Shown here: positions 11,254 through 62,250 of the stretch, piece after piece | Numbering within the stretch: the stretch's first letter is position 1 | Layout of the letters: each line of letters starts with the position of its first letter | Source: Meiothermus sp. | Lineage (GTDB): Bacteria > Deinococcota > Deinococci > Deinococcales > Thermaceae | Length of the DNA: 64,000 nt | Assembly: GCF_026004075.1 (NCBI RefSeq) | Contig: NZ_BPIK01000002.1 | Coordinates: forward strand, 62,001-126,000 | Reading direction: 5' to 3' | The notes under the pieces: generated by a model | What the model was told of the DNA's origin: nothing | Databases searched by the model: none | What the model saw: the letters and a program-made list of their open reading frames with translations, nothing else | Translations under genes and position numbers: made by a program

Positions 11254-11313
11254 TTCGCAACCTTTCGCAAGTGTTCATAACTATTGACAAGCTTTGGGCC
11301 CTGCCCTTAGACT
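11254..11313 (+). promoter_or_regulatory. Promoter of galactoside transport operon with phased TTCG operator
   Basis: TTCG at 11254 and 11264 and TTCA at 11274 are 10 bp apart and run into TTGACA (11284-11289, same phase). With TAGACT at 11308-11313 (18-bp spacer) this makes a good promoter. A repressor on the TTCG repeats would sit immediately upstream of, and overlap, the -35. The 96-nt leader ends with TAAGGAGGG before the ATG at 11410. Confidence 0.7.
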
Positions 11314-11409: not shown

Positions 11410-12702
11410 ATGAAGCGTTTACTGGTTTTAGGAGCAGCCCTGGCTCTCACAGTGGCCTCGGCCCAATCTATACAGGGGAACCCCAACCTGCGCGGCGAGA
11501 TCACCGTGTGGAGCTGGGACATTGCAGCCAAGGCCCTGGAGGCTAACATCCCCGGCTTCAACAAGCTCTTCCCCAACGTGAAGGTCAAGGTGCTGGACAT
11601 CGGCAACCAGGCCACCTACGACCGCGGCCTGGCCGGCTGTGCTGCCGGCGGGGGCGACCTGCCCGACGTCTATTCCGTCGAGAACAACGAGGCCGAGGTG
11701 TTCTGGGCCCGCTTCCCCAACTGCTTTACCGACCTGAACACCCTGCAGCCCGCTGCCTCTACCCTGCGCAACCAGTTCCCTGCCTTCAAGTGGACCGAAC
11801 TCACCGTAGGCAACAAGGTCTTCGCCATGCCCTGGGACTCCGGCCCGGTGGTCATGTTCTACCGGCGCGACATCTACAGCCAGGCCGGCGTCAACCCGGC
11901 TACCATCCGCACCTGGGACGACTTTATTGCAGCTGGCAAGAAAATTGCTGCAGCCACCAACAACCGCGTCAAAGTAGGGGTCATTGCCAACGGTCAGGAC
12001 GACGAATGGTTCCGTATGCTGGCCAACCAGAACAGCTGCTTCTACTTCAACAACGAGGCCAATGCCGTAACGGTGAACCAGCCCGGCTGTGTGACTGCGC
12101 TCGAGACCGTCAAGAAGCTGATTGACGCCGGTATCGTGATGCAAGGCGGCTGGAACGAGCAGATTCAGGCCTTCAAGGCCGGCACCGTAGCCACCAGCAT
12201 GTTCGGGGCCTGGTACGAAGGCACCATCCGCTCCAACGCCCCCGAGCAGAGCGGCAAGTGGGGCGTGTACCCAATGCCCGCTTCCCGTCCCGGTGGGGTG
12301 CGCGCCGCCAACCTGGGTGGCTCAGCCCTGGCCATTCCCGCCTCCTCGCGCAATAAGGAAGCCGCCTGGGCCTTTGTCCGCTACGCTCTGGGCACCACCG
12401 AGGGCCAGGTGACCATGCTCAAGGAATATGGCCTGGTGCCCTCGCTGCTGGCCGCCACCCGCGATCCCTACGTGGCCCAGCCCCAGCCCTACTGGGGCAA
12501 CCAGCGCATCTGGCAGGTGATCCTGGGCACCCTGGGCAACGTGCCGGCGGCCCGAGGCACCCAGTTCTTCCAGGAAGCCCGCGCCATTATGGTCAAGACC
12601 CAGGCCGACTACGTAGCCGGGCGCTTCCCGAACGCCAAAGCGGCCCTTGATGCCGCCGCCCAGCAGATCTCGCAGGCCACCGGTCTGCCCATCGCACGCT
12701 AA
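11410..12702 (+). CDS. Sugar ABC transporter substrate-binding protein (family 1)
   Basis: A 430-residue exported binding protein. The signal peptide MKRLLVLGAALALTVASA ends near residue 18 with a type I site and no lipobox Cys. The mature part fits the family 1 carbohydrate-binding fold (GEITVWSWD, GGGDLPDVYSVEN, MPWDSGPVVMFYRRDIY, TVATSMFGAWYEG). Four Cys (CAAGG, FPNCF, NSCFYF, PGCVT) could form two disulfides. TAAGGAGGG (11397-11405) fixes the ATG. It is the first gene of an operon with two permeases, beta- and alpha-galactosidase, galT and galK, so galacto-oligosaccharides are the likely ligand; the exact sugar is inferred. No ATPase gene is present, so a shared MsiK/MalK-type ATPase elsewhere is expected. 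Confidence 0.93.
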   Translation: MKRLLVLGAALALTVASAQSIQGNPNLRGEITVWSWDIAAKALEANIPGFNKLFPNVKVKVLDIGNQATYDRGLAGCAAGGGDLPDVYSVENNEAEVFWARFPNCFTDLNTLQPAASTLRNQFPAFKWTELTVGNKVFAMPWDSGPVVMFYRRDIYSQAGVNPATIRTWDDFIAAGKKIAAATNNRVKVGVIANGQDDEWFRMLANQNSCFYFNNEANAVTVNQPGCVTALETVKKLIDAGIVMQGGWNEQIQAFKAGTVATSMFGAWYEGTIRSNAPEQSGKWGVYPMPASRPGGVRAANLGGSALAIPASSRNKEAAWAFVRYALGTTEGQVTMLKEYGLVPSLLAATRDPYVAQPQPYWGNQRIWQVILGTLGNVPAARGTQFFQEARAIMVKTQADYVAGRFPNAKAALDAAAQQISQATGLPIAR

Positions 12703-12711
12703 AACCACTTT

Positions 12712-12743
12712 GGGGGTGGGGGCTGCCCCACCCCCTCGCTTTT
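12712..12743 (+). terminator. Attenuating hairpin between binding-protein and permease genes
   Basis: GGGGGTGGGG (12712-12721) pairs with CCCCACCCCC (12726-12735) over a 4-nt loop, followed by TCGCTTTT. It would cut off most transcripts after the binding-protein gene, giving more binding protein than permease. The xylan operon has a hairpin at the same place. Confidence 0.75.
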
Positions 12744-12812
12744 ACAACAGTAGAATCGTTTTGGAGCCTCCCGTGAGGTGCAATATACCCAGACTTTTGA
12801 CCTGGAGGACGC

Positions 12813-13652
12813 GTGAAACGTAGCGCGACCCCCTACCTTTTTTTACTGCCCTACCTGGCGATTTTCGCTTTGTTCTGGGCCTGGCCCATCCTCGAGTCGC
12901 TGCTTTTGTCGTTCCAGAACACCCGGGTCTCCCCCCCGGTCTGGAACCTAAGCATCAACTGGGGCCGCATCCTGGGCGATGCCGCCTTTTGGGACGCCCT
13001 GCGCAACACGGTTTTGATTCTGGTAATCCAGGTGCCCCTGATGCTGGCCCTGGCCACCGCGCTGGCCGTTGCGCTGAACTCGCAATTGTTGCGGGTCAAG
13101 GGGTTTTTTCGCTTCGCTTTCTTTGCGCCGGTGGTGGTGGGAGCGGTGGCCTACTCGGCGGTGTTCCGTCTGCTTTTCAACCAAAACGGCGCGGTTAATG
13201 CGTTCACGGGCCTCGAGCTCAACTGGATTTTCGACCCCGTGGGGGCCATGGCGGTCATCATCATCACCCTGACCTGGCGCTGGACCGGCTACAACGCCAT
13301 CATCATCCTGGCCGGCCTGCAAAGCATCCCCAAGGATCTCTACGAGGCCGCCGAGATAGACGGGGCCAGCCCCTGGCAGCAGTTCTGGCGCATCACCGTA
13401 CCCAGCCTGCGCCCGGTTTTGCTATTTTGCCTGGTGCTCTCCATTATCGGAACCCTGCAGCTCTTCACCGAGCCCTGGCTCATCACCAACGGCGGCCCCG
13501 GCACCGCCACCACCACCCTGGGGGTCTACCTCTACCGCCAGGGCTTCCAGAACATCAACTTCGGCTACGCCTCCACCATCGCCTACGCCATCACCCTGCT
13601 GGCGCTGGTCTTCTCCATCATCCAGCTTCGGCTTTTTGGGAGGGAATCATGA
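12813..13652 (+). CDS. Carbohydrate ABC transporter permease (MalF/UgpA type)
   Basis: A 279-residue inner-membrane protein with six predicted membrane segments. The EAA loop EAAEIDGASPWQQFWRITVP (about residues 177-196), where the ATPase docks, is intact. The GTG start at 12813 follows a TGGAGG. The stop overlaps the next permease start (ATGA), typical of obligate heterodimeric partners. It works with the binding protein upstream to import galactosides. Confidence 0.94.
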   Translation: MKRSATPYLFLLPYLAIFALFWAWPILESLLLSFQNTRVSPPVWNLSINWGRILGDAAFWDALRNTVLILVIQVPLMLALATALAVALNSQLLRVKGFFRFAFFAPVVVGAVAYSAVFRLLFNQNGAVNAFTGLELNWIFDPVGAMAVIIITLTWRWTGYNAIIILAGLQSIPKDLYEAAEIDGASPWQQFWRITVPSLRPVLLFCLVLSIIGTLQLFTEPWLITNGGPGTATTTLGVYLYRQGFQNINFGYASTIAYAITLLALVFSIIQLRLFGRES

Positions 13653-14659
13653 AACGGCGGCTCTGGTGGCGCAGCTTCTGGCTGCACCTGTTCCTGACCC
13701 CCCTGGCCCTTTTGTGGCTGGCCCCTTTGTGGCTGATGTTCGTCTTCTCGACCCACCCCGAGATCGCCATCTTCAGCACCCCCACCCCCATCCTGCCGGG
13801 CAACCAGTTTGCCGCCAACCTGCAAAGCCTGCAGGCCGACACCAACTTCCTGCGCTCTTTGTTCAACAGCGTGATGGTGGCCGGCATCTACACGGTGCTC
13901 TCCATCTTCCTGACCAGCCTGGCCGGGTACGCCTTTGCGCGTTTTGAGTTCTGGGGCAAGGGCCTGCTGTTCTCCCTGGTGATCGCCACCCTGACCATCC
14001 CCTACTTTGCGGTGGTGATCCCCCAGTTTATTCTGGTGGCCCGCGAGGCCAAAACCCTGCTGGCAATTCTGATTGGGATGGCAGTGTTTGGCGGTATCGC
14101 GGCCCTGCTAGCCTGGCTCCGCTTCTCGCCCACCCTGGGGCGGGCGCTGTGGGTGGGGTATGCGGTGGCGGCCCTGGCCTACCTCTTCCTGGGGGTGCCG
14201 GCGCTGCGCGAGGCCATGACCTTCGACTTCCGCCTCACCAACACCTGGTGGGCGGTGATTCTGCCCTCACTGGCCAACAGCCTGGGAGTGTTTTTCATGC
14301 GGCAAAACTTCCTCAGCGTTCCCATGAGCCTGCTGGAAGCCGCCCGCATAGACGGGGCCGGGGAGTTTCGCATCTTCTTCCGGATAGCCCTGCCGCTGGT
14401 GCTCCCGGCCATGGCTGCCCTGGCCATCATCCTCTTTCTGGCCTCCTGGAACGACTACCTGTGGCCTTTGCTGGTGCTCTCGGATCGGGAGATGCAGACC
14501 GCCCCGGTGGCGCTGGGCTCGCTGATTGGGCTGACGCGGGTCTCGTGGGGGGGCATCATGGTGGGGGCGGTCATGACCACCCTGCCGTTTCTGGTGCTGT
14601 TCCTGTTCCTGCAGCGCTACTTTATTGCGGGCATTACCGCGGGAGGGGTGAAGGATTGA
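13649..14659 (+). CDS. Carbohydrate ABC transporter permease (MalG type) with extra transmembrane hairpin
   Basis: A 336-residue permease partner, about 55-60 residues longer than a usual MalG-type protein (about 280). The EAA motif EAARIDGAGEFRIFFRIALP is present. The extra length is an insertion of about 62 residues (14051-14236) between VAREA and TNTWWAVILP. It contains two hydrophobic stretches, LLAILIGMAVFGGIAALLAWL and LWVGYAVAALAYLFLGVPAL, so the protein may have eight membrane segments. The start at 13649 overlaps the upstream stop by 4 bp and has GGGAGGGAA before it; longer upstream frames are in the partner's coding region. Confidence 0.93.
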   Translation: MKRRLWWRSFWLHLFLTPLALLWLAPLWLMFVFSTHPEIAIFSTPTPILPGNQFAANLQSLQADTNFLRSLFNSVMVAGIYTVLSIFLTSLAGYAFARFEFWGKGLLFSLVIATLTIPYFAVVIPQFILVAREAKTLLAILIGMAVFGGIAALLAWLRFSPTLGRALWVGYAVAALAYLFLGVPALREAMTFDFRLTNTWWAVILPSLANSLGVFFMRQNFLSVPMSLLEAARIDGAGEFRIFFRIALPLVLPAMAALAIILFLASWNDYLWPLLVLSDREMQTAPVALGSLIGLTRVSWGGIMVGAVMTTLPFLVLFLFLQRYFIAGITAGGVKD

Positions 14660-14788: not shown

Positions 14789-16729
14789 ATGTTAGGCGTC
14801 TGCTACTACCCCGAACACTGGCCCCGCGAACGCTGGGCCGAAGATGCCCGGCGCATGCGCGCGCTGGGCCTGGCCTACGTGCGCATTGGCGAGTTTGCCT
14901 GGAGCGCCATAGAGCCCGACCCTGGCCGCTTTACCTGGGACTGGCTGGATGCGGCCATCGAGACCCTGGGCAAAGCCGGCCTCAAGGTGGTGCTGGGCAC
15001 CCCCACCGCCACCCCCCCCAAGTGGCTCATCGACCAGCACCCTGATATCCTGGCCTACGATATCCAGGGACGGCCCCGCAAGTTTGGCTCCCGCCGGCAC
15101 TACAGCTTTAGCAGCCGGGTTTACCTCGAGGAGGCCCGCCGTATCGTGACCCTGCTGGCCCAGCGCTACGGCCCCAACCCCTTGGTGGCCGGCTGGCAGA
15201 CCGATAACGAGTACGGCTGCCACGACACCACCCGCAGCTACGGCCCCGAAGACCTGCGGGCCTTCCGGCTGTGGCTACAGGCCCGCTACGGCAGCATCGA
15301 GGCCCTCAACCAGGCCTGGGGCAACGCCTTCTGGAGCATGACCTACCGGGCTTTTGGCGAGATCGACCTGCCCAACCAGACCGTTACCGAGGCCAACCCT
15401 TCGCACTGGCTGGATTTTTACCGCTTTAGCTCGGATCAGGTGGCCGCCTTCAACCGTATGCAGACCGAAGTCCTGCGGCAGTATGCCCCCGAGAAGTTCA
15501 TCGTGCACAACTTTATGGGCTACACCCCAGACTTCGACCACTTCAAGCTGGCCCAGGATCTGGATATCGCCGGCTGGGACAGCTACCCCCTGGGCTTTAC
15601 CGATATGGACGTGCTGCCCTGCACAACGGAGGAAAAGCTCCGCTACGCCCACACCGGCCACCCCGATATGGCCGCCTTCCACCACGATCTCTACCGCGGG
15701 GTCAAGCCGCGCTGGTGGGTGATGGAGCAGCAGCCGGGGCCGGTCAACTGGGCCCACCACAACCCCTCCCCGGCCCCCGGTATGGTGCGGCTGTGGACCT
15801 GGGAGGCCCTGGCCCACGGGGCCGAGGTGGTGAGCTACTTCCGCTGGCGGCAGTTTCCCCAGGCCCAGGAGCAGTTCCACGCCGGACTCAACCGGCCCGA
15901 TTTCGAGCCCGACCTGGGCTTTTTCGAGGCCCAGCAGGTGGCTCAGGAGCTTGGCCGGCTGTCCCTGCCCCAAAGCACCCCGGCCCCCGTGGCCCTGGTC
16001 TTCGACTACGAGGCCGACTGGGTTTTCCGCATCCAGCCGCAGGGCCAGGAGTTTGTGTACCGCGACCTGGTCTGGCATTTCTATCAGGCCCTGCGCAGCC
16101 TGGGGCTGGACGTGGATGTGGTGCCTCCGGGAGCCCGCCTGCACCCCTACCGGCTGGTGGTGGTGCCCAGCCTGCCCATCCTGCACGAAGCGGCCCTGCA
16201 GGCCTTCAAAGAGGCCCCTGGCGCGGTGGTCTTCGGGCCGCGCACCGGCTCCAAAACCGAGGCCCTGGGCATACCGGCCCAGCTACCCCCCGGCGCTTTG
16301 CAGGCGCTGCTGCCCCTCAAGGTAACCCGGGTGGAAAGCTGGCGCCCCGGCCTGAGCGAAACCCTCACCTGGCAGGGCCGGCCCTGGCCGGTGGGGGTCT
16401 GGAAGGAGTGGGTCGAGTCCAGCCTCACCCCGGTCGCCGCCTTTGCCGATGGCAGGGGGGCCATCTACCAGCACCACCACCGGCACTACCTGGCCTTCTG
16501 GCCAGGCCGGGAGTTTCTGCAAAGCTATCTGGCCGAGGTGGCCCAGGGCCTGGGCTTGGCGATCCAGCCCCTGCCCGAGGGTTTACGCATGCGGCGGCGG
16601 GGGCCCTGGGTGTTTGCCTTCAACTACACCGACCGACCCCAGGCCGCCCCAACCCCCCCAGGCGCCCGGTTCATTTTGGGCGGCCCCACCGTGGCCCCTT
16701 ATGATTTGAGCATCTGGGTTGAGGAGTAA
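14789..16729 (+). CDS. Beta-galactosidase, glycoside hydrolase family 42
   Basis: A 646-residue GH42 enzyme close in length and motifs to the Thermus A4 beta-galactosidase. It cleaves terminal beta-galactosyl bonds. The N-terminal TIM barrel starts [17 protein letters not shown]. The acid/base Glu is in WQTDNEYGC (residue 141) and the nucleophile is in [11 protein letters not shown] (residue 313). A trimerisation domain and a small beta domain follow. There is no signal peptide, so it acts on imported sugar. No Shine-Dalgarno precedes the ATG and a TACCCT lies 5 nt before it, so a second leaderless start inside the operon is possible. Confidence 0.96.
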
Positions 16730-16733
16730 GGCT

Positions 16734-18188
16734 GTGCAGATTCAGGGCTACGAGTTCAGCATCAGCGCGGGGCGGCTCGAGGAAACCCTGGGCGGCTATC
16801 TGCTGAGCGGCAAAACCGTGCAGATCGGCCATCCCTTCGGGCGCACGCTCTACTTCAAGCACGGCTGGCAGAGCTGGAGCGAGGCCGGCTGGGTAAGCCT
16901 GAGAGAGAACCCCAAGCCCATCCAGCCCCCCGAGCGGCGGCCTCAGTGCGACGACCCAGCCTACGCCCTCTCACCGGTGCACGGCGGCAGCGGCCTGGGG
17001 GGCCTCGAGGGCCACGACGGACGGATGCTCTTCCTGGGGGCTCTGCGTCCGGGGGCGCGCGTAGAGGCCGACCGCCTCTACTTGAAGGGTACCTGCGACC
17101 ACGAGACCCAGTGGTTTGTGGCCTACGGCGAACAGCAGCAGGTGCTGGCCCGCTACGCCGAGCTGCTGGCCAACACCCTGGGCGTCCGGGGCCAGCAGCC
17201 CGCCCCCCGGGTCTGGTGTAGCTGGTACAGCTATTACAGCGATATCTCGGAAAGCAAGATGCTGGAGACCATCGCCGGCTTGCAGGGCCTGCCCTTCGAG
17301 GTGTTTCAGCTCGACGACGGCTGGCAGCAAAACATGGGCGACTGGGAGCCCAACCACAAGTTCCGCTCGGGCATGAGCACCATCGCCCTGCGGGCCCAGA
17401 GCCAGGGCCTGACCCCCGGCCTCTGGCTGGCCCCCTTTATTGCCCGGCCCAGCTCCAGCCTGTTCAAGGAACACCCCGACTGGTTCTTGCGCGACGAGCA
17501 GGGCGAGCTGGTCTCGGCGGGCAGCAACTGGGGCGGCTACTACGCGCTGGACGTGACCCTGCCAGCCGTACAAAACTGGCTGCAGAGCCTGATCCAGAAG
17601 GTGCGGGGCTGGGGCTACCGCTACTTGAAGCTGGATTTCCTGTTTGCAGCGGCCCTGCCTGGCAAGAGGCATAGCGGAGCCTCGAGGGAGGAGGCCTACC
17701 GCGAAGCGCTCCGCCTCATCCGCGAGGCCGCCGGCGACGATGTGTACATTCTGGCCTGCGGGGCCCCCATCATCGCCTCGCTGGGCCTGGTGGATGGGCT
17801 GCGCATTGGGCCGGACGTGGCCCCTTACTGGGACAACGAAGACCGGCGGGTGTACCTGCACGACCCCACCGGCCCCGCGGCCTACAACGCCCTGCGCACC
17901 AGCCTGCACCGCCTCTGGCTGAAGCCGCTGGTGCACACCGACCCCGACGTGGCCTACTTCCGCACCCGCTACAACCTGCTCACCCCGGCCCAGCGCGCGG
18001 TGTTGCAGGACCTGGCCCTGGTTGCGGGCTTCAAGGCCACCTCCGACCCCCCCGAGTGGCTGGACGGCGAGGAGCGGGAAGGGCTCAAGGAGTGGCTCGA
18101 GGCCAGCCCCTCCATCCTCCAGACCGGCCCCTACACCTTCAAGATTGGCGAGCGTGAAGTGGATTTCTCGAGCTGGCTGGAAATCTAG
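16734..18188 (+). CDS. Alpha-galactosidase, glycoside hydrolase family 36 (AgaT-like)
   Basis: A 484-residue intracellular enzyme of the short GH36 type known from Thermus AgaT, which removes alpha-1,6-galactose from melibiose or raffinose-type sugars. Motifs: WCSWYSYYSD, FQLDDGWQQNMGDWEPN, the nucleophile Asp in YLKLDFLF (residue 301, the same number as in AgaT), and the acid/base Asp in RIGPDVAPYW (about residue 361). GTG 16734 was chosen because GAGGAG (16721-16726) is 7 nt upstream; the longer TTG frame would overlap the GH42 stop. With the GH42 gene it lets the cell use both alpha- and beta-galactosides. Confidence 0.95.
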   Translation: MQIQGYEFSISAGRLEETLGGYLLSGKTVQIGHPFGRTLYFKHGWQSWSEAGWVSLRENPKPIQPPERRPQCDDPAYALSPVHGGSGLGGLEGHDGRMLFLGALRPGARVEADRLYLKGTCDHETQWFVAYGEQQQVLARYAELLANTLGVRGQQPAPRVWCSWYSYYSDISESKMLETIAGLQGLPFEVFQLDDGWQQNMGDWEPNHKFRSGMSTIALRAQSQGLTPGLWLAPFIARPSSSLFKEHPDWFLRDEQGELVSAGSNWGGYYALDVTLPAVQNWLQSLIQKVRGWGYRYLKLDFLFAAALPGKRHSGASREEAYREALRLIREAAGDDVYILACGAPIIASLGLVDGLRIGPDVAPYWDNEDRRVYLHDPTGPAAYNALRTSLHRLWLKPLVHTDPDVAYFRTRYNLLTPAQRAVLQDLALVAGFKATSDPPEWLDGEEREGLKEWLEASPSILQTGPYTFKIGEREVDFSSWLEI

Positions 18189-18222
18189 CCCCGCTTCGCG
18201 CCTTGAGACCCTCGAGGAGACC

Positions 18223-19263
18223 ATGCATAAGCGTGTATATGTGAAAAAAGACGGCCGGATGCTGTACCTGTACGGCCTGAAGCCCCACACCCTGCCGGCG
18301 CTCGAGGAGGGCGAAAACACCGGGCAGGCCCAGTCCCATGCCCGCTGGCACCCCCTGCGGCAGGAGTGGGTGGTGTTTGCCGCCAGCCGCCAGGGGCGTA
18401 CCTTCCTGCCCCCCAAGGAGTACGACCCCCTGGCCCCCAGCAAGCCCGGTGGCTTCCCCACCGAGATTCCCTTCGAAGACTTCGAGATCGCCGTCTTCCA
18501 GAACCGCTGGCCCTCCCTCTCCCCCCACGCTGGGGCGCCGCCCGAGGGCCTGGTCATCCCTACCCGCGACGCCCAGGGCGACTGCGAGGTGGTGGTGTAT
18601 ACCCCCGAGCACAGCGGCAGCCTGGCCTCTTTAAGCCCCGAGCGGCGCGAGCTGCTGGTGCGGGTCTGGGCCGACCGCTACCGCGAGCTGTACGCCCGCC
18701 CCCCGATCCAGTACGTGATGCCCTTCGAGAACCGGGGCGAGCAGATGGGGGTCACGCTGCACCACCCCCACGGGCAAATTTACGCCTACCCCTGGGTTCC
18801 ACCCATTCTGCAAAAGGAGCACGAGGCCTTCCAGAAAAGCCCGGTGCTGCTCAACCTGCTGCCGCACCTGGGGCCCTACACGGTGCTGGAAGATGCGCAC
18901 GTGCTGGCCTGCATTCCGCCTTTTGCCCGCTACCCGTACGAGGTGCTGCTCTTCCCCAAGCAGTTCCGCCCCGGCCTGTGGGCCTTTACCGAGGAAGAGA
19001 TACGCAGTTTCGCCAGGGCGCTGGGCCAGGTGGTGCAGAAGCTGGACAACCTGTTCCAGAAGCCCATGCCCTACGTGATGGCCCTGCACGCCGCCCCCAA
19101 AGGCGCCGAGGATGTCTTCCACTTCCACGTGGAGTTCTACCCGGCCCTGCGCACCGCCGACAAGCTCAAGTACCTGGCCGGCACCGAGCTGGCCGCCGGC
19201 ACCTTTGCCATGGATGCCCTGCCCGAGGAGACCGCGCGGGTGCTGCGCGAGGTGGCGATCTGA
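18223..19263 (+). CDS. galT: Galactose-1-phosphate uridylyltransferase
   Basis: A 346-residue Leloir-pathway enzyme that exchanges galactose-1-phosphate with UDP-glucose. The active-site motif HHPHGQIYAYPW lies near residues 178-189, and the middle His of HPH is the uridylylated nucleophile. A second histidine triad region is HFHVEFYP near residue 304. The start is ATG 18223 with CGAGGAG just upstream; the longer open frame upstream lies in GH36. galE is not in the window. It follows the two galactosidase genes, which supply galactose. Confidence 0.96.
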   Translation: MHKRVYVKKDGRMLYLYGLKPHTLPALEEGENTGQAQSHARWHPLRQEWVVFAASRQGRTFLPPKEYDPLAPSKPGGFPTEIPFEDFEIAVFQNRWPSLSPHAGAPPEGLVIPTRDAQGDCEVVVYTPEHSGSLASLSPERRELLVRVWADRYRELYARPPIQYVMPFENRGEQMGVTLHHPHGQIYAYPWVPPILQKEHEAFQKSPVLLNLLPHLGPYTVLEDAHVLACIPPFARYPYEVLLFPKQFRPGLWAFTEEEIRSFARALGQVVQKLDNLFQKPMPYVMALHAAPKGAEDVFHFHVEFYPALRTADKLKYLAGTELAAGTFAMDALPEETARVLREVAI

Positions 19264-19329: not shown

Positions 19330-20331
19330 ATGAACGATTCTGCACTCACCCGACTGCGGGCCTGGATGGAAGGCCAGGGTTTTGCGCGCTTTTTTGTACA
19401 GCAGCCCGAGAACTTCGCCTGGCTCACCGGCGGCGACAACACCGTGGTCACCTTTCGCTCAGTAGCAGCCTGGCTCGAGGTCACCCCCAACGGCGTGCGG
19501 CTCCACGCCTCGCAGATCGAGGCCGGGCGGCTCCTGGACGAGGAGGTGCCGGGCCTCGAGGTCGTGCGCTACCCCTGGTACAGCCCGCCCGCCCCTCAGG
19601 GGCCCAGCGACAGCGAGCACGACCTCACCCCTTTGCGCCTGGTGCTCTCACCGGAAGAACAGGCCCGCTACCGCGCCCTGGGCCGGGATGCCGCGGCGGC
19701 CCTGGGCGAGAGCCTCCGCTTCGCCGACCCCGGCTGGAGCGAGTACGAGCTGGCCGGGGCCATCAGCGAGGAACTCCTGTCCAAGGGCATCCAGCCCCTG
19801 GTGTTGCTGGTCGCCGGCGAGGAACGGCTCTTCCGCTACCGCCACCCCATCCCCAAACAACGTCCCTTGGGGCGGCTGTTTATGGGGGTGATCTGCGGGC
19901 GGCGGCACGGCCTTATCGCCAACGTGAGCCGCCTGCGTAGCTTTGGTCACCCGGAGGCCCAGCGCCTCAACCAGCAGGTCTGCCAGATCGAAGCCGCCGC
20001 CCTCGAGGCCTCGAGGCCCGGCGCAACCCTGGGCGAGGCGCTGGAAAGCATCCGCGCGGCCTACCAGGCCATCGGCCAGCCCCAGGAGTTTGAAAACCAT
20101 CACCAGGGCGGCCTGACCGGCTACCGCAGCCGCGAGGTGCTGGCCCGGCCCGGCAACCCCACCCGGCTCGAGCCCGGCATGGCCCTGGCCTGGAACCCCA
20201 GCCTGCCCGGCGCCAAGGTCGAGGATACCTTTTTGCTCGGCGAAACCGGCCTGGAAAACCTCACCTTCGATCCGGCCTGGCCCAGCGCACAAGTCAACGG
20301 GCGCCTGCGTCCGATGGTGCTCGAGGGCTAA
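19330..20331 (+). CDS. M24-fold (Xaa-Pro peptidase-like) protein with degenerate metal site
   Basis: A 333-residue protein with an N-terminal creatinase-like domain and a C-terminal pita-bread M24 domain (ANVSRL, HHQGGLTGYRSRE, LEPGMALAW, VEDTFLL). In active M24 enzymes five ligands (Asp, Asp, His, Glu, Glu) bind two metals. Here the first Asp falls in VICG, the second is Asn in IANVSR, and the Glu after EPGM is replaced in LAWNPS. Only the His of HHQGG and the Glu of VEDT remain. It therefore probably does not act as a metallopeptidase. It sits between galT and galK, with GAGGT before the ATG, so a role in galactose metabolism or regulation is possible but unproven. Confidence 0.75.
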   Translation: MNDSALTRLRAWMEGQGFARFFVQQPENFAWLTGGDNTVVTFRSVAAWLEVTPNGVRLHASQIEAGRLLDEEVPGLEVVRYPWYSPPAPQGPSDSEHDLTPLRLVLSPEEQARYRALGRDAAAALGESLRFADPGWSEYELAGAISEELLSKGIQPLVLLVAGEERLFRYRHPIPKQRPLGRLFMGVICGRRHGLIANVSRLRSFGHPEAQRLNQQVCQIEAAALEASRPGATLGEALESIRAAYQAIGQPQEFENHHQGGLTGYRSREVLARPGNPTRLEPGMALAWNPSLPGAKVEDTFLLGETGLENLTFDPAWPSAQVNGRLRPMVLEG

Positions 20332-20376: not shown

Positions 20377-21420
20377 ATGTTCAAAGACCTCTTTGGCAGC
20401 GAACCCAGCGTATCCGTCTCGGCCCCGGGCCGCGTCAACCTGCTGGGCGAGCACACCGACTACAACGGGGGGTTTGTCTTCCCCACCCCCCTCCCCTACC
20501 AGACCTATATCGAAGCCGCCCCCGCCGAGGGGCTCGAGGCCTACGCCGAGAACTTTCAGGAGCATAAAAGCCGTGGGCTGGAGGTGGGCCGGCAGGGGGA
20601 CTGGCTGGATTACCTCGCGGGCTGCGTGTGGGCTCTGCGCCAGCAGGGGTATGCCGTGCCGGGCCTGCGGGCCTACATCCGCAGCGAGGTGCCCATGAGC
20701 GGGGGGCTCTCGAGCTCGGCGGCGCTGGAAGTGGCCACCCTGCGGGCCCTGCGCGCCCTCTATGGCCTTCCCCTCGACGACGTGCAGATCGCCCGGCTGG
20801 CCCAGCAGGCCGAGGTGGCGTATGTGGGGGTGCGCTGCGGCATCATGGATCAGATGGCCTCGTCGGTGGGGCGGCTGGGGTACGGGCTGTTCCTGGATAC
20901 CCAGAGCCTCGAGACCCGGCTGGTGCCCCTGCCGCCAGGCTACCGGGTGGCCGTGGTGGACTCGTCGGTGCCGCGCCGCCTGGCCGAGTCAGGCTACAAC
21001 ACCCGCCGCGCCGAGTGCGAGCAGGCCTGCGCGCTCCTGGGGGTGCCGTCGTTGCGCGCACTTTCCCCTGCCGACCTCCCCCGCCTCGAGGCCCTGCCCG
21101 AGCCCCTGAAGCGCCGGGCCCGCCACGTGGTCACCGAGAACCAGCGCGTGCTGGAAGGGGTAGCGGCCTTAGAGCAGGGCGATATCCAGCGCTTCGGCGA
21201 GCTGATGATAGCCTCGCACCGCTCACTGCGCGACGATTACGAGGTCTCGATCCCCGAGCTCGACCGGCTGGTGGAGGCCGAGCTGCGCCACGGGGCCGCG
21301 GGGGCCCGCCTGACCGGGGCCGGCTTTGGCGGCTCGACGGTGGCCTTGGTCGAGGAGTCTAAATACGAAGATTTCAAAAAGGGCGTCTTGCAGGACTACC
21401 CCAGGGCGCGGTTCTTTTGA
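20377..21420 (+). CDS. galK: Galactokinase
   Basis: A 347-residue GHMP-family kinase that phosphorylates galactose at C1 with ATP. The galactokinase signature GRVNLLGEHTDYNGG is near residues 17-31. The GHMP glycine/serine loop PMSGGLSSSAALEVA is near 107-121, and the third motif GARLTGAGFGGSTVAL is near 308-323. The Asp of the catalytic pair is in RCGIMDQMAS. It completes, with galT, the route from the two galactosidases. Its end runs directly into the PIG-L gene. Confidence 0.97.
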   Translation: MFKDLFGSEPSVSVSAPGRVNLLGEHTDYNGGFVFPTPLPYQTYIEAAPAEGLEAYAENFQEHKSRGLEVGRQGDWLDYLAGCVWALRQQGYAVPGLRAYIRSEVPMSGGLSSSAALEVATLRALRALYGLPLDDVQIARLAQQAEVAYVGVRCGIMDQMASSVGRLGYGLFLDTQSLETRLVPLPPGYRVAVVDSSVPRRLAESGYNTRRAECEQACALLGVPSLRALSPADLPRLEALPEPLKRRARHVVTENQRVLEGVAALEQGDIQRFGELMIASHRSLRDDYEVSIPELDRLVEAELRHGAAGARLTGAGFGGSTVALVEESKYEDFKKGVLQDYPRARFF

Positions 21421-21436
21421 GCTCGAGCCCCTCCGG

Positions 21437-21442
21437 TATAAT
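21437..21442 (+). promoter_or_regulatory. Consensus -10 (TATAAT) for leaderless PIG-L transcript
   Basis: TATAAT is followed by 7 nt and the ATG at 21450. No clear -35 lies at normal distance. The gene may thus have its own start in addition to operon read-through from galK. Confidence 0.55.
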
Positions 21443-21449
21443 CCCCACC

Positions 21450-22265
21450 ATGGCCGAGCTTCCCCCCATCCTGGCGGTGTTCGCCCACCCCGACGACGAG
21501 GCCTTTCCCACCGGCGGCACCCTGGCCCACTACGCGCGGCGGGGGCATCCGGTCTACCTGGCCTGTGCCACCCGGGGCGAGGCGGGGCAGCTCAAAGACC
21601 CCACCCTCACCGTGGAGGATATGGGCGCATGGCGCACCCAGGAGCTCGAGGCCTCCTGCCAGGCCCTGGGCCTCCAGCCCCCCATCTTTCTGGGCTACCG
21701 CGACTCCGGGCGCAACGAGCGGCTGCGCCGCGACGACCCCCAGGCCCTCCACAACGCCAACCTGTGGGAGGTGGAGGCCAAAATCCGCGAGCTTATAGCC
21801 GAGCTTCAACCCAGAATCCTGATTACCTTCGACCCCCACGGGGGTTACGGGCACCCCGACCACCTGGTCGTGCACCGTGCCGCCACCGCCGCGTTTTTTT
21901 CCTCGGGCCACCTGCCCAACCCCCCAGCACGCCTTTTCTACAGCGTCTTCACCAGCGAATACGCCGCCGCCATGCAGCAAAGCGGCCAGGCCAACAGCAT
22001 CCTGGGTGGCCTCGACCCCCAGGTCTTCGGCGTAGCCGAAAACACCCTGGCGGTGCGGATGAACGTGCAGGCCTACCTACCCCAAAAGCGAGCGGCCATC
22101 GCCGCCCACCGCTCGCAGTTCGCCGACCGCATCCAGGCCATGAACGCCACCCTCGATCGCCAAGCCCTCATGGAGCAGCTGATCTCGGTGGAAACCTTCG
22201 CTCTGGGTGGAACCCGCGGCCCCATCCCGCGCTGGCCCTTGCAGGACTTGTTCGAAGGCCTGTAA
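21450..22265 (+). CDS. PIG-L/LmbE family deacetylase (possible BshB-type)
   Basis: A 271-residue zinc-dependent N-acetylglucosaminyl deacetylase-family protein. The first metal motif is AVFAHPDDEAFPTGGTLAHY (His, Asp and Asp near residues 12-15) and the second is GGYGHPDHLVVH. Relatives include BshB (bacillithiol precursor), MshB (mycothiol) and chitobiose deacetylases, and the substrate cannot be assigned here. ATG 21450 was chosen over the TTG at 21417, which overlaps galK, because a TATAAT lies 7 nt upstream. The last codon is followed by TAA, the first triplet of repeat copy B. Confidence 0.85.
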   Translation: MAELPPILAVFAHPDDEAFPTGGTLAHYARRGHPVYLACATRGEAGQLKDPTLTVEDMGAWRTQELEASCQALGLQPPIFLGYRDSGRNERLRRDDPQALHNANLWEVEAKIRELIAELQPRILITFDPHGGYGHPDHLVVHRAATAAFFSSGHLPNPPARLFYSVFTSEYAAAMQQSGQANSILGGLDPQVFGVAENTLAVRMNVQAYLPQKRAAIAAHRSQFADRIQAMNATLDRQALMEQLISVETFALGGTRGPIPRWPLQDLFEGL

Positions 22266-60992: not shown

Positions 60993-62250
60993 GGTCGTGT
61001 AAGGAATTATGTGTAGGGGTTTGTGTAAAAAGAGGGGGTACCGCAATCAACAAGGAGGTACCCCATGGATCAGGATACCCTACAGATGATTTTGCGCGAA
61101 GCGGTAAGGGAAACAGCCACCGAGGTCTTGCAGATTCTGCTGGACGCCGACCGGGAGGCCTTCTTGCGGGAACACGGAGGACGCAAAAACGGCTACTACC
61201 CCAGGCGGCTTTCGACCCGCTTTGGTTCAGTGAACCTCCAGATGCCCAGGGATCGCGAGGGGTGCTACTATCCCAGCTTCCTGGAACCTTATGCCCGGCG
61301 CCTGGTGGACGTGGGGGAGGTGGCCGTGGCCCTGTATGCCGCCGGGGTGACGCAGCGCAAAGCGGCGGAGGTGCTGAGCCTGTTGCTGGGGCACCGCTAT
61401 ACCCACGAGACCCTTAGCAGCCTGACCGACCAGGTCTTGCGGGCGGCGGAGCAGTACCGCCAGCGGCCTTTGCCGGAGGAACTGGCCGTGGTCTACCTGG
61501 ACGGTCTGTTTCTGAGGGTCATGCGGGACGACCTGGGGGTTCAGCAAGAGGCGGTGTATGTGGCGCTGGGCATCACCCCCAGCGGGGAGCGGCAGGTGCT
61601 GGGCTTCTGGCTCCTGCCCGCAGAGAGCGCTCTGGCCTGGGAGGAGGTGTTGAAGGGCTTGTGGCAAAGGGGCCTACGGCGGGTCTTGCTCTTCGTGACC
61701 GATGGCCTTCCCGGCATGGAGGCGGCCATCCAAAGGGTCTACCCCGGCGCCGAATGGCAGCGCTGCGTGGTGCACATGGTGCGCTCCAGCCTGGCACAGG
61801 TGCGTGCACGGGATCGGGGGGCGGTGGCCGAGCATCTACGCGGGGTGTACCGGGCGGAAAGCCGACAGGAAGCCCTGGAAGGCCTGGAGCGGCTGCGGCG
61901 AACCTGGGGGTCGAGGTACCCGCGGCTGGTGAGCGGTTGGTGGGAGGACTCCGCGGCGCTGCTGCGGTTCTATGGCTATCCCAAGGTGCTGTGGCCCTAC
62001 CTTCGGAGCACCAATCCGATGGAACGGTTTATCCGGGAGATAAGACGCAGTACCAAGGTACGGGATCACAAGTTTCCTACAACGGAGGCGGTGTTCAAAG
62101 TGCTGTATCTGGAGAGCGAAAGGCAGGAGGGCAAATGGACAGAGCGTACACTCAGAGGCTTTGCCGAGGCAAAGGAGATGCTAGAACAGATGCTGAAGGA
62201 GCGGTACTTCCCCTCTACACAGACTGCTACACATAAATCTTGACACGACC
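60993..62250 (+). mobile_element. Complete IS256-family insertion sequence
   Basis: 1,258 bp bounded by imperfect inverted repeats of about 35 bp (left 60993-61027, right 62216-62250). The first eight bases, GGTCGTGT, are identical at both ends, and GTGTAG recurs. An 8-bp duplication GAGGTGAA flanks it (60985-60992 and 62251-62258), the size typical of IS256. The transposase stop lies inside the right repeat. The element looks intact and possibly active. Confidence 0.93.
61065..62243 (+). CDS. IS256-family transposase (mutator type)
   Basis: A 392-residue DDE transposase. The catalytic Asp residues are in VYLDGLFLRVM (about 147) and FVTDGLPGM (about 213), the Glu in NPMERFIREIRRSTKV (about 325). 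The IS256 C-x2-H signature is in RCVVHMVRSSLA. GGRKNGYYPRRLSTRFGSVN and MPRDREGCYYPSFLEPYARR are the N-terminal DNA-binding region. AAGGAGG precedes the ATG. No frameshift is seen, so the protein is probably functional. Confidence 0.97.
   Translation: MDQDTLQMILREAVRETATEVLQILLDADREAFLREHGGRKNGYYPRRLSTRFGSVNLQMPRDREGCYYPSFLEPYARRLVDVGEVAVALYAAGVTQRKAAEVLSLLLGHRYTHETLSSLTDQVLRAAEQYRQRPLPEELAVVYLDGLFLRVMRDDLGVQQEAVYVALGITPSGERQVLGFWLLPAESALAWEEVLKGLWQRGLRRVLLFVTDGLPGMEAAIQRVYPGAEWQRCVVHMVRSSLAQVRARDRGAVAEHLRGVYRAESRQEALEGLERLRRTWGSRYPRLVSGWWEDSAALLRFYGYPKVLWPYLRSTNPMERFIREIRRSTKVRDHKFPTTEAVFKVLYLESERQEGKWTERTLRGFAEAKEMLEQMLKERYFPSTQTATHKS

Follow-up and report, generated by a model that had tools for sequence, protein, structure and literature searches.

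Retaining glycosidases of the GH42 and GH2 types yield the beta anomer of the sugar, and galactokinase (GalK) takes the alpha anomer. E. coli K-12 has a mutarotase gene in each of its gal (galM), fuc (fucU), rha (rhaM) and sulfoquinovose (yihR) clusters. GalM has a beta-sandwich fold, unrelated to the pita-bread fold of the M24 proteins, FucU/RbsD, RhaM, YihR and SqvB likewise have folds other than pita-bread, and we know of no mutarotase that has one. On the pita-bread fold, creatinase and ectoine hydrolase cleave C-N bonds, the former functioning without the metals, and in Spt16 the fold is used as a binding domain. For sulfoquinovose clusters, an unrelated protein, SqvB (DUF4867), has been proposed in place of YihR (PMC9594981), which is the closest precedent for a non-homologous protein in a mutarotase slot, and the clusters of Arthrobacter are reported to have no identifiable mutarotase gene (PMC8873060).

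The stretch of DNA analysed here (“the window”, 64,000 nucleotides of a Meiothermus sp. contig) encodes an M24-fold protein within a run of galactose genes. The locus is that of a conserved pita-bread family without metal ligands that is tied to aldose catabolism, and is more than an odd peptidase. Gene context suggests, with belief and doubt evenly balanced in our view, that the family is a new, non-homologous aldose 1-epimerase (mutarotase) family on a metal-free pita-bread fold.

The M24 gene, its metal site and its predicted fold

The gene belongs to a same-strand run in which a putative ABC importer, a GH42 beta-galactosidase, a GH36-type glycosidase and galT precede it, and galK and a PIG-L-type deacetylase follow (Table 1). 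The preliminary description had placed it between galT and galK, which is borne out by the TIGR00209 and TIGR00131 matches of the two neighbours and by gaps of 66 bp (galT stop to M24 gene) and 45 bp (M24 gene to galK start). In an annotated Thermus beta-galactosidase operon, the sugar ABC genes have the same order as those of the putative importer. The top NCBIfam match of the deacetylase is MshB, at 146 bits (cut-off 224). A promoter scan gave one sigma-70-like site (11284-11313), which does not exceed the 1.3 that chance would give. A transposase-like gene (61065-62243; phrog_2331, E 1.7e-93) lies close to the window's right end.

Table 1. Features of the galactose gene run in the window (searches used a galT start at 18217, two residues longer than the version listed).
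Feature	Position	Strand	Basis or remark
Putative sugar ABC importer (solute-binding protein and two permeases), same gene run	11452..14659	+	Gene calls; clustering with Thermus gal-locus genes
GH42 beta-galactosidase, upstream, same gene run	14789..16729	+	PF02449, E 5.8e-149
Melibiase-like (GH36-type) glycosidase	16719..18188	+	PF02065, E 3.5e-16
galT, galactose-1-phosphate uridylyltransferase	18223..19263	+	TIGR00209 above cut-off; PF01087/PF02744
M24-fold protein without metal ligands	19330..20331	+	333 aa, ATG start; feature under study
Codons R166 to H172 (R166, H172 invariant)	19825..19845	+	107/107 rows
HHQGG motif (residues 257-261), which aligns to the metal-His motif HxxGH of prolidases	20098..20112	+	Alignments
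NPSLPGAKVED, residues 289-299 (N289 in the place of E1; E298 is E2, retained)	20194..20226	+	1pv9 alignment and motif
galK, galactokinase	20377..21420	+	TIGR00131 above cut-off; PF10509
PIG-L/MshB-like deacetylase, overlaps galK end; loosely associated	21417..22265	+	PF02585; gene cluster of 3 members including the window

The window protein matches Peptidase_M24 over residues 114-303 (E 3.5e-12) and Creatinase_N over residues 6-83. Its PF00557 score of 47 bits (cut-off 23) places it in the M24/pita-bread superfamily, and up to E 1 no Pfam domains other than PF00557 and PF01321 were found, so that it is not a member of PF01263 (GalM). The source genome (3.25 Mb) has three further PF00557 genes, one of them inside the window at about 41.0-41.7 kb. 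Relatives were collected by a profile search of genome contigs with the family alignment, and the best 80 of 178 were retained; among these, the closest named relatives are from Meiothermus. A quick tree was built from 107 of 127 rows, after removal of near-copies and with pieces shorter than 300 aa left out.

Metal ligands were mapped with HMMER alignments to the P. furiosus (1pv9) and D. radiodurans (5cdl) prolidases, and with a MAFFT alignment to the prolidase-like paralogue from the same genome. The position of the first Asp (D1) falls at V187-C189 and that of the second (D2) at N198, and the second metal Glu (E2) is kept as E298. The counterpart of the first Glu (E1) differs by alignment, being N289 with 1pv9, a Glu inside an insertion with 5cdl, and E281 with the paralogue. 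We prefer N289, since an NP motif stands in the place of EP and since N289 is invariant (107/107) while E281 is Glu in 27 of the 107 relatives. In all three alignments, the ligand His of GHGxG pairs with G261 of HHQGG, and H257 is the counterpart of the first His of HxxGHG, which is no ligand. H172 presumably corresponds to the His that M24 enzymes conserve but do not use as a ligand. The replacement of three of the five ligands, as put forward in the preliminary description, is thus confirmed for D1, D2 and E1, and the ligand His has probably been lost as well; none of the three alignments recovers all five (D, D, H, E, E) that characterize an M24 metallopeptidase. In the 107 relatives, the D2 position is N in 67, S in 24, A in 12, D in 3 and C in 1, and the C189 position is C in 96, V in 7, T in 2 and G in 2. 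With D1 and D2 positions this variable, the metal site is not maintained in the family, and the protein is predicted from its sequence to bind no metal.

Nineteen positions, by comparison, are identical in all 107 rows, which include bacteria and haloarchaea: W31, G34, R67, E71, W83, R166, H172, G194, R201, Y245, H258, Q259, G260, G261, R268, N289, P290, K296 and E298. With H172, H258 and E298 among them, the remaining His and Glu to which the preliminary description had drawn attention are conserved throughout. Such conservation across differing operons argues for catalysis rather than for a decayed peptidase, and we reject the latter on the basis of these 19 positions.

An AlphaFold2 model (15 family proteins as input; mean pLDDT 93.0, pTM 0.90) predicts a pita-bread fold, in agreement with the M24 fold first assigned to the protein. 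Its top solved match is 5cnx, the Xaa-Pro aminopeptidase of E. coli (Z 30.9, 2.6 Å over 309 residues), and it is similar over nearly the whole chain to prolidases, ectoine hydrolase, creatinase and Spt16 (5ce6, Z 27.9). By profile, the match to 5cdl has an E value of 4.6e-19.

Distribution and gene neighbourhoods of the family

Members occur in Deinococcota, Cyanobacteria, Geobacteraceae, Acetothermia, Actinomycetota, Chloroflexota, Pantoea and haloarchaea, and are annotated in plasmid records as M24 metallopeptidase or aminopeptidase P. In Deinococcota, 53 of 111 genomes have a match at E 1e-10, and we used the 51 found at 1e-20 (G081 and G100, with weak matches resembling ordinary M24 proteins, were dropped, as were weak second hits; G163, with the gene in two pieces, was counted as present). 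These 51 genomes hold 52 family genes, 23 of which lie within 300 bp of galT or galK and 27 within 10 kb; in the genus of the window, all 17 are within 10 kb. galK is present in 50 of the 51 genomes with the family, as compared with 44 of the 60 without it.

Outside Deinococcota, galK or galT is found within 5 kb at 46 of the 60 loci that have a called gene (L110, where the family gene is uncalled, is not counted), and galK is within 300 bp at 35. By group, linkage within 5 kb holds for Acetothermia (4/4), Geomonas (6/6) and cyanobacteria (31/37). The order galT-M24-galK recurs in Geomonas, Citrifermentans, several Nostocales and an unclassified proteobacterium, and M24-galK occurs in Acetothermia and others. 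All 12 sampled cyanobacteria with the M24 protein have galK, versus 32 of the 232 without it. A GH42 or GH2-type glycosidase gene is present at 33 of the 46 gal-type loci with at least 5 kb of upstream sequence. The linkage to gal genes that the preliminary description regarded as decisive is therefore conserved across phyla. On the quick 107-row tree, the gal label changes 14 times, with at least 8 changes forced by supported branches, from which we conclude that the linkage was made or kept repeatedly. The other 14 of the 60 loci have no gal gene within 5 kb, and a clear sugar operon is absent at L108, L144, L154 and L163.

Several neighbourhoods have features of their own. Close to GH2-galT-M24-galK, at L092-L101, at L116 and at numerous loci of Nostoc (such as L134 and L143), genes for UDP-galactopyranose mutase and for a GH1-like/RmlD-type fusion protein are found repeatedly; members of the mutase cluster occur in 21 of 57 gal-type loci, and these neighbours might indicate salvage of galactofuranose. 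In some Meiothermus (L061 and L062, of G033 and G030; L074, L075), galT is elsewhere, and a serine hydroxymethyltransferase gene stands directly before M24-galK. In family f5, L047 (G099) forms a separate clade with L044, L048 and L051; one of the four is directly before galK, and the others have no gal gene nearby. In three Thermus loci (L036 of G062, L042 of G046, and L165, on a plasmid of T. thermophilus SG0.5JP17-16), the family gene is interrupted by a stop or frame break beside a beta-galactosidase or gal operon, which indicates that the family gene can be lost while the gal operon stays. For Geobacter bemidjiensis, one report gives galT as Gbem_4017 and galK as Gbem_4019, and describes growth with glucose and none with galactose; its main text contains neither the word peptidase nor the word mutarotase (PMC2996986).

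The family is also found in clusters for other sugars. Several Thermus members are downstream of xylA and xylB (642 bits for XylA and 478 for XylB, both above cut-off), and on plasmid pVV8 of T. thermophilus HB8, xylB overlaps the M24 gene. The Thermaceae genome G071 has two family copies (L033 and L041), of which one belongs to a xyl cluster and the other is 3.3 kb away from galT. The xylA and xylB genes of T. brockianus have been described in a paper whose main text lacks the word mutarotase (PMC5292009). In one actinomycete, araA immediately precedes the family gene, and elsewhere a FucI-like isomerase, an FGGY kinase (by clustering) and an AraD-type protein are encoded beside it. A Trueperaceae-type clade has clusters of isomerase, PfkB, LacD-aldolase and Gfo-Idh genes. 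We rejected a sulfoquinovose label for these clusters and that of G004, as their isomerases score only 116 and 63 bits where the SftI cut-off is 700, and the GH31 enzyme of G004 is nearest to alpha-xylosidase; they are isomerase/kinase/LacD-aldolase clusters, sugar unspecified. Glucose dehydrogenase, GMC oxidoreductase and GH15 genes surround the family gene in one Dehalococcoidia, a malQ gene precedes it on a Nostoc edaphicum plasmid, and a GMC oxidoreductase gene precedes it on a Pantoea plasmid. In seven haloarchaeal records, it lies among arabinofuranosidase genes and, in most of them, sugar ABC genes. The contexts of two further haloarchaeal copies, L108, L144 and a Gloeothece copy (with a glucoamylase gene about 2 kb upstream) are less clear.

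The common thread of these contexts is free aldoses. A galactose-only role is rejected by the occurrence of the same family in clusters for xylose, arabinose and other sugars. The galactose-specific jobs offered in the preliminary description (sugar-phosphate sensing, or a partner of GalK and GalT) do not agree with the finding of the same invariant residues beside xylA/xylB, araA and FucI-like isomerase genes, and near glucose dehydrogenase and arabinofuranosidase genes.

Known mutarotases in relation to the M24 protein

Homologues of GalM, YihR, FucU and RhaM were not detected in 135 stretches around family loci, a search in which GalM and YihR had positive controls, both within the profile, and in which FucU and RhaM were each queried with one sequence and without a control. 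The 135 stretches are the loci L032-L165, which partly overlap and of which L069 has no M24 gene, together with the neighbourhood in the window. What surrounds the family gene is thus an aldose catabolic cluster without a detected known mutarotase, save at a minority of loci without clear sugar context.

The cyanobacterial sample comprises 244 genomes, 44 of them with galK, and the 12 with the M24 protein are all within these 44, in which PF01263 was searched. The M24 protein alone is found in 12, GalM alone (at least 240 bits) in 16, both in none and neither in 16 (Fisher p 0.0016). Within 6 kb of galK are 13 of the 16 GalM genes and 10 of the 12 M24 genes. The two strong cyanobacterial PF01263 members that were scanned pass the PRK11055 GalM cut-off, and a weak one fails it. 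The contrast is confounded by ancestry, since genome sizes split by lineage: 15 of the 16 genomes with GalM measure 1.7-2.2 Mb, and all 12 with the M24 protein measure 5.3-7.7 Mb.

In Deinococcota, the alternation of GalM and M24 protein is weak. In the 94 genomes with galK, both the M24 protein and a strong GalM are present in 3 (G079, G085 and G086, each with a PF01263 member of at least 150 bits), the M24 protein only in 47, GalM only in 10 and neither in 34 (p 0.033, uncorrected for ancestry), and when any PF01263 member is counted, weak ones included, the corresponding numbers are 22, 28, 14 and 30 (p 0.29), with no anti-correlation. The PF01263 matches listed include no genome of the genus that contains Thermus (27 genomes), in which the M24 gene is present in 10 genomes, galT in 27 and galK in 26. 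The only PF01263 match of the window genome (G000:C1:1149872-1150753, L177), a weak relative of aldose 1-epimerases, is far from the gal genes and fails the PRK11055 GalM cut-off by a wide margin, its best NCBIfam score being 80 bits (cut-off 251).

PF01263 was also searched at E 1e-8 in 48 family-bearing genomes (from 50 of the 80 loci). Some member is present in 31. In 6 (three Nostoc, one Anaerolineae, Plantibacter and Humibacter) it reaches at least 150 bits, so that in these the M24 protein occurs together with a strong PF01263 member. No PF01263 member was found at this threshold in 17 of the 48, several of which are draft MAGs; they include four Geomonas, Citrifermentans, four Acetothermia, Thermoanaerobaculia, Neomarinimicrobiota, Anaeromyxobacter and Nannocystis, the last without gal linkage.

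Several points weigh against a mutarotase reading, among them the genomes above that have both proteins. With neither gene in 34 of 94 Deinococcota and 16 of 44 cyanobacterial galK genomes, and in many genomes of the Thermus genus, a mutarotase is not obligatory. At the growth temperatures of Meiothermus and Thermus, spontaneous mutarotation is fast. Chemistry at the anomeric carbon other than mutarotation is possible, and the invariant set, which is rich in Arg and Lys, might point to an anionic ligand.

Possible functions and comparison with known systems

The mutarotase reading rests on free aldoses being what the sugar clusters have in common, with anomer interconversion as the step unaccounted for; 19 positions that stay invariant while the operons change are what would be expected if the chemistry acts on the part that aldoses have in common. 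We infer the reaction, the catalytic residues and the substrate range of the family as follows. The ring of a free aldose would be opened at the anomeric carbon and would reclose as the other anomer, possibly with interconversion of furanose and pyranose as well. H172, H258 and E298 are the candidate acid/base set, which may be aided by R166, R268, N289 and K296. In the operon of the window, the GH42 enzyme would release beta-D-galactose, the M24 protein would then supply alpha-D-galactose, and this would be phosphorylated by GalK and the product passed on by GalT. In wider terms, and tentatively, with doubt here slightly the heavier side, this widespread family may be a new class of sugar mutarotase or ring-opening enzyme (acting on anomers, perhaps also on furanose and pyranose forms) on a metallopeptidase fold after loss of the metal site. 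Among the matches listed in the open-access literature, none assigns a sugar function to the metal-free M24 family, and no open-access paper was found that treats mutarotase together with the M24 family. The preliminary description offered three non-peptidase options, of which an enzyme that uses the fold without two metals agrees best with these results; it did not propose mutarotation.

Another step of aldose use on the same fold (lactone hydrolysis, dehydration or isomerisation) is conceivable but unlikely. Gfo/Idh/MocA, SDR, GMC or glucose dehydrogenase genes adjoin the family gene in the Thermus xyl, Trueperaceae-type and Pantoea clusters and at L139. In the Meiothermus, Geomonas and Nostoc clusters, however, the stretch from the glycosidase genes to galK has no recognised sugar dehydrogenase gene (in Geomonas, a protein with an RmlD-like domain is encoded downstream of galK), and GalK and GalT require no such step.

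The structural similarity to creatinase (Z 28.1) and ectoine hydrolase (Z 28.8), which cleave C-N bonds, would also suit a hydrolase that works without metal on the anomeric carbon of sugar derivatives, for instance by clearing glycosylamines or N-glycosyl amino acids from free aldoses with creatinase-like chemistry. The free-aldose contexts apply equally to such an enzyme, and the serine hydroxymethyltransferase gene immediately upstream in some Meiothermus genomes speaks for it. We nevertheless consider it quite improbable, as no other cluster for handling amines or amino acids was recognised beside the family (many neighbours being judged without a domain scan) and as it leaves the alternation of GalM and M24 protein in cyanobacteria unexplained.

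The tight galT-M24-galK order, and the use of the fold for binding in Spt16, would fit a non-catalytic sugar sensor or a binding partner of GalK or GalT. The same invariant polar set is kept in xyl and haloarchaeal contexts without adjacent GalK or GalT, and a protein dedicated to two particular enzymes would not be expected beside other kinases and glycosidases, so that we regard this role as very improbable. That the protein is a peptidase still active with an altered metal site is scarcely credible despite the plasmid annotations and the retained ligand E298, since D1, D2 and E1 are lost, probably along with the His ligand, and the D1 and D2 positions are variable.

If the mutarotase reading is correct, organisms that have no GalM would obtain the missing first enzyme for using galactose, xylose or arabinose from genes that records label as peptidases. 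Mutarotation would then have been reached by yet another unrelated protein, to our knowledge the first on the pita-bread fold, and a peptidase fold would have been turned to carbohydrate chemistry through metal loss.

By structure, the nearest known systems are the M24B prolidases and aminopeptidases P (YpdF, 5cnx; D. radiodurans, 5cdl/5giu; P. furiosus, 1pv9), which likewise have a full-length pita-bread domain and a creatinase_N-type N-terminal domain (Z about 28-31). The family differs from them in its HHQGG and NPS..K.ED motifs, in the replacement of D1, D2 and E1 (and probably the His), and in its sugar-operon context. Creatinase (1chm, Z 28.1) and the ectoine hydrolase DoeA (6twk/6yo9, Z 28.7-28.8) have the fold in common with the model, but identity is 18-22%, and no creatine or ectoine genes were recognised near the family genes. 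By genomic position, the counterpart is GalM (PF01263), which occupies the same slot beside galK and alternates with the M24 protein in the sampled cyanobacteria. FucU/RbsD, RhaM, YihR and the putative SqvB are mutarotases or ring-opening proteins encoded in the operons of other aldose pathways, the role that we propose for the M24 family.
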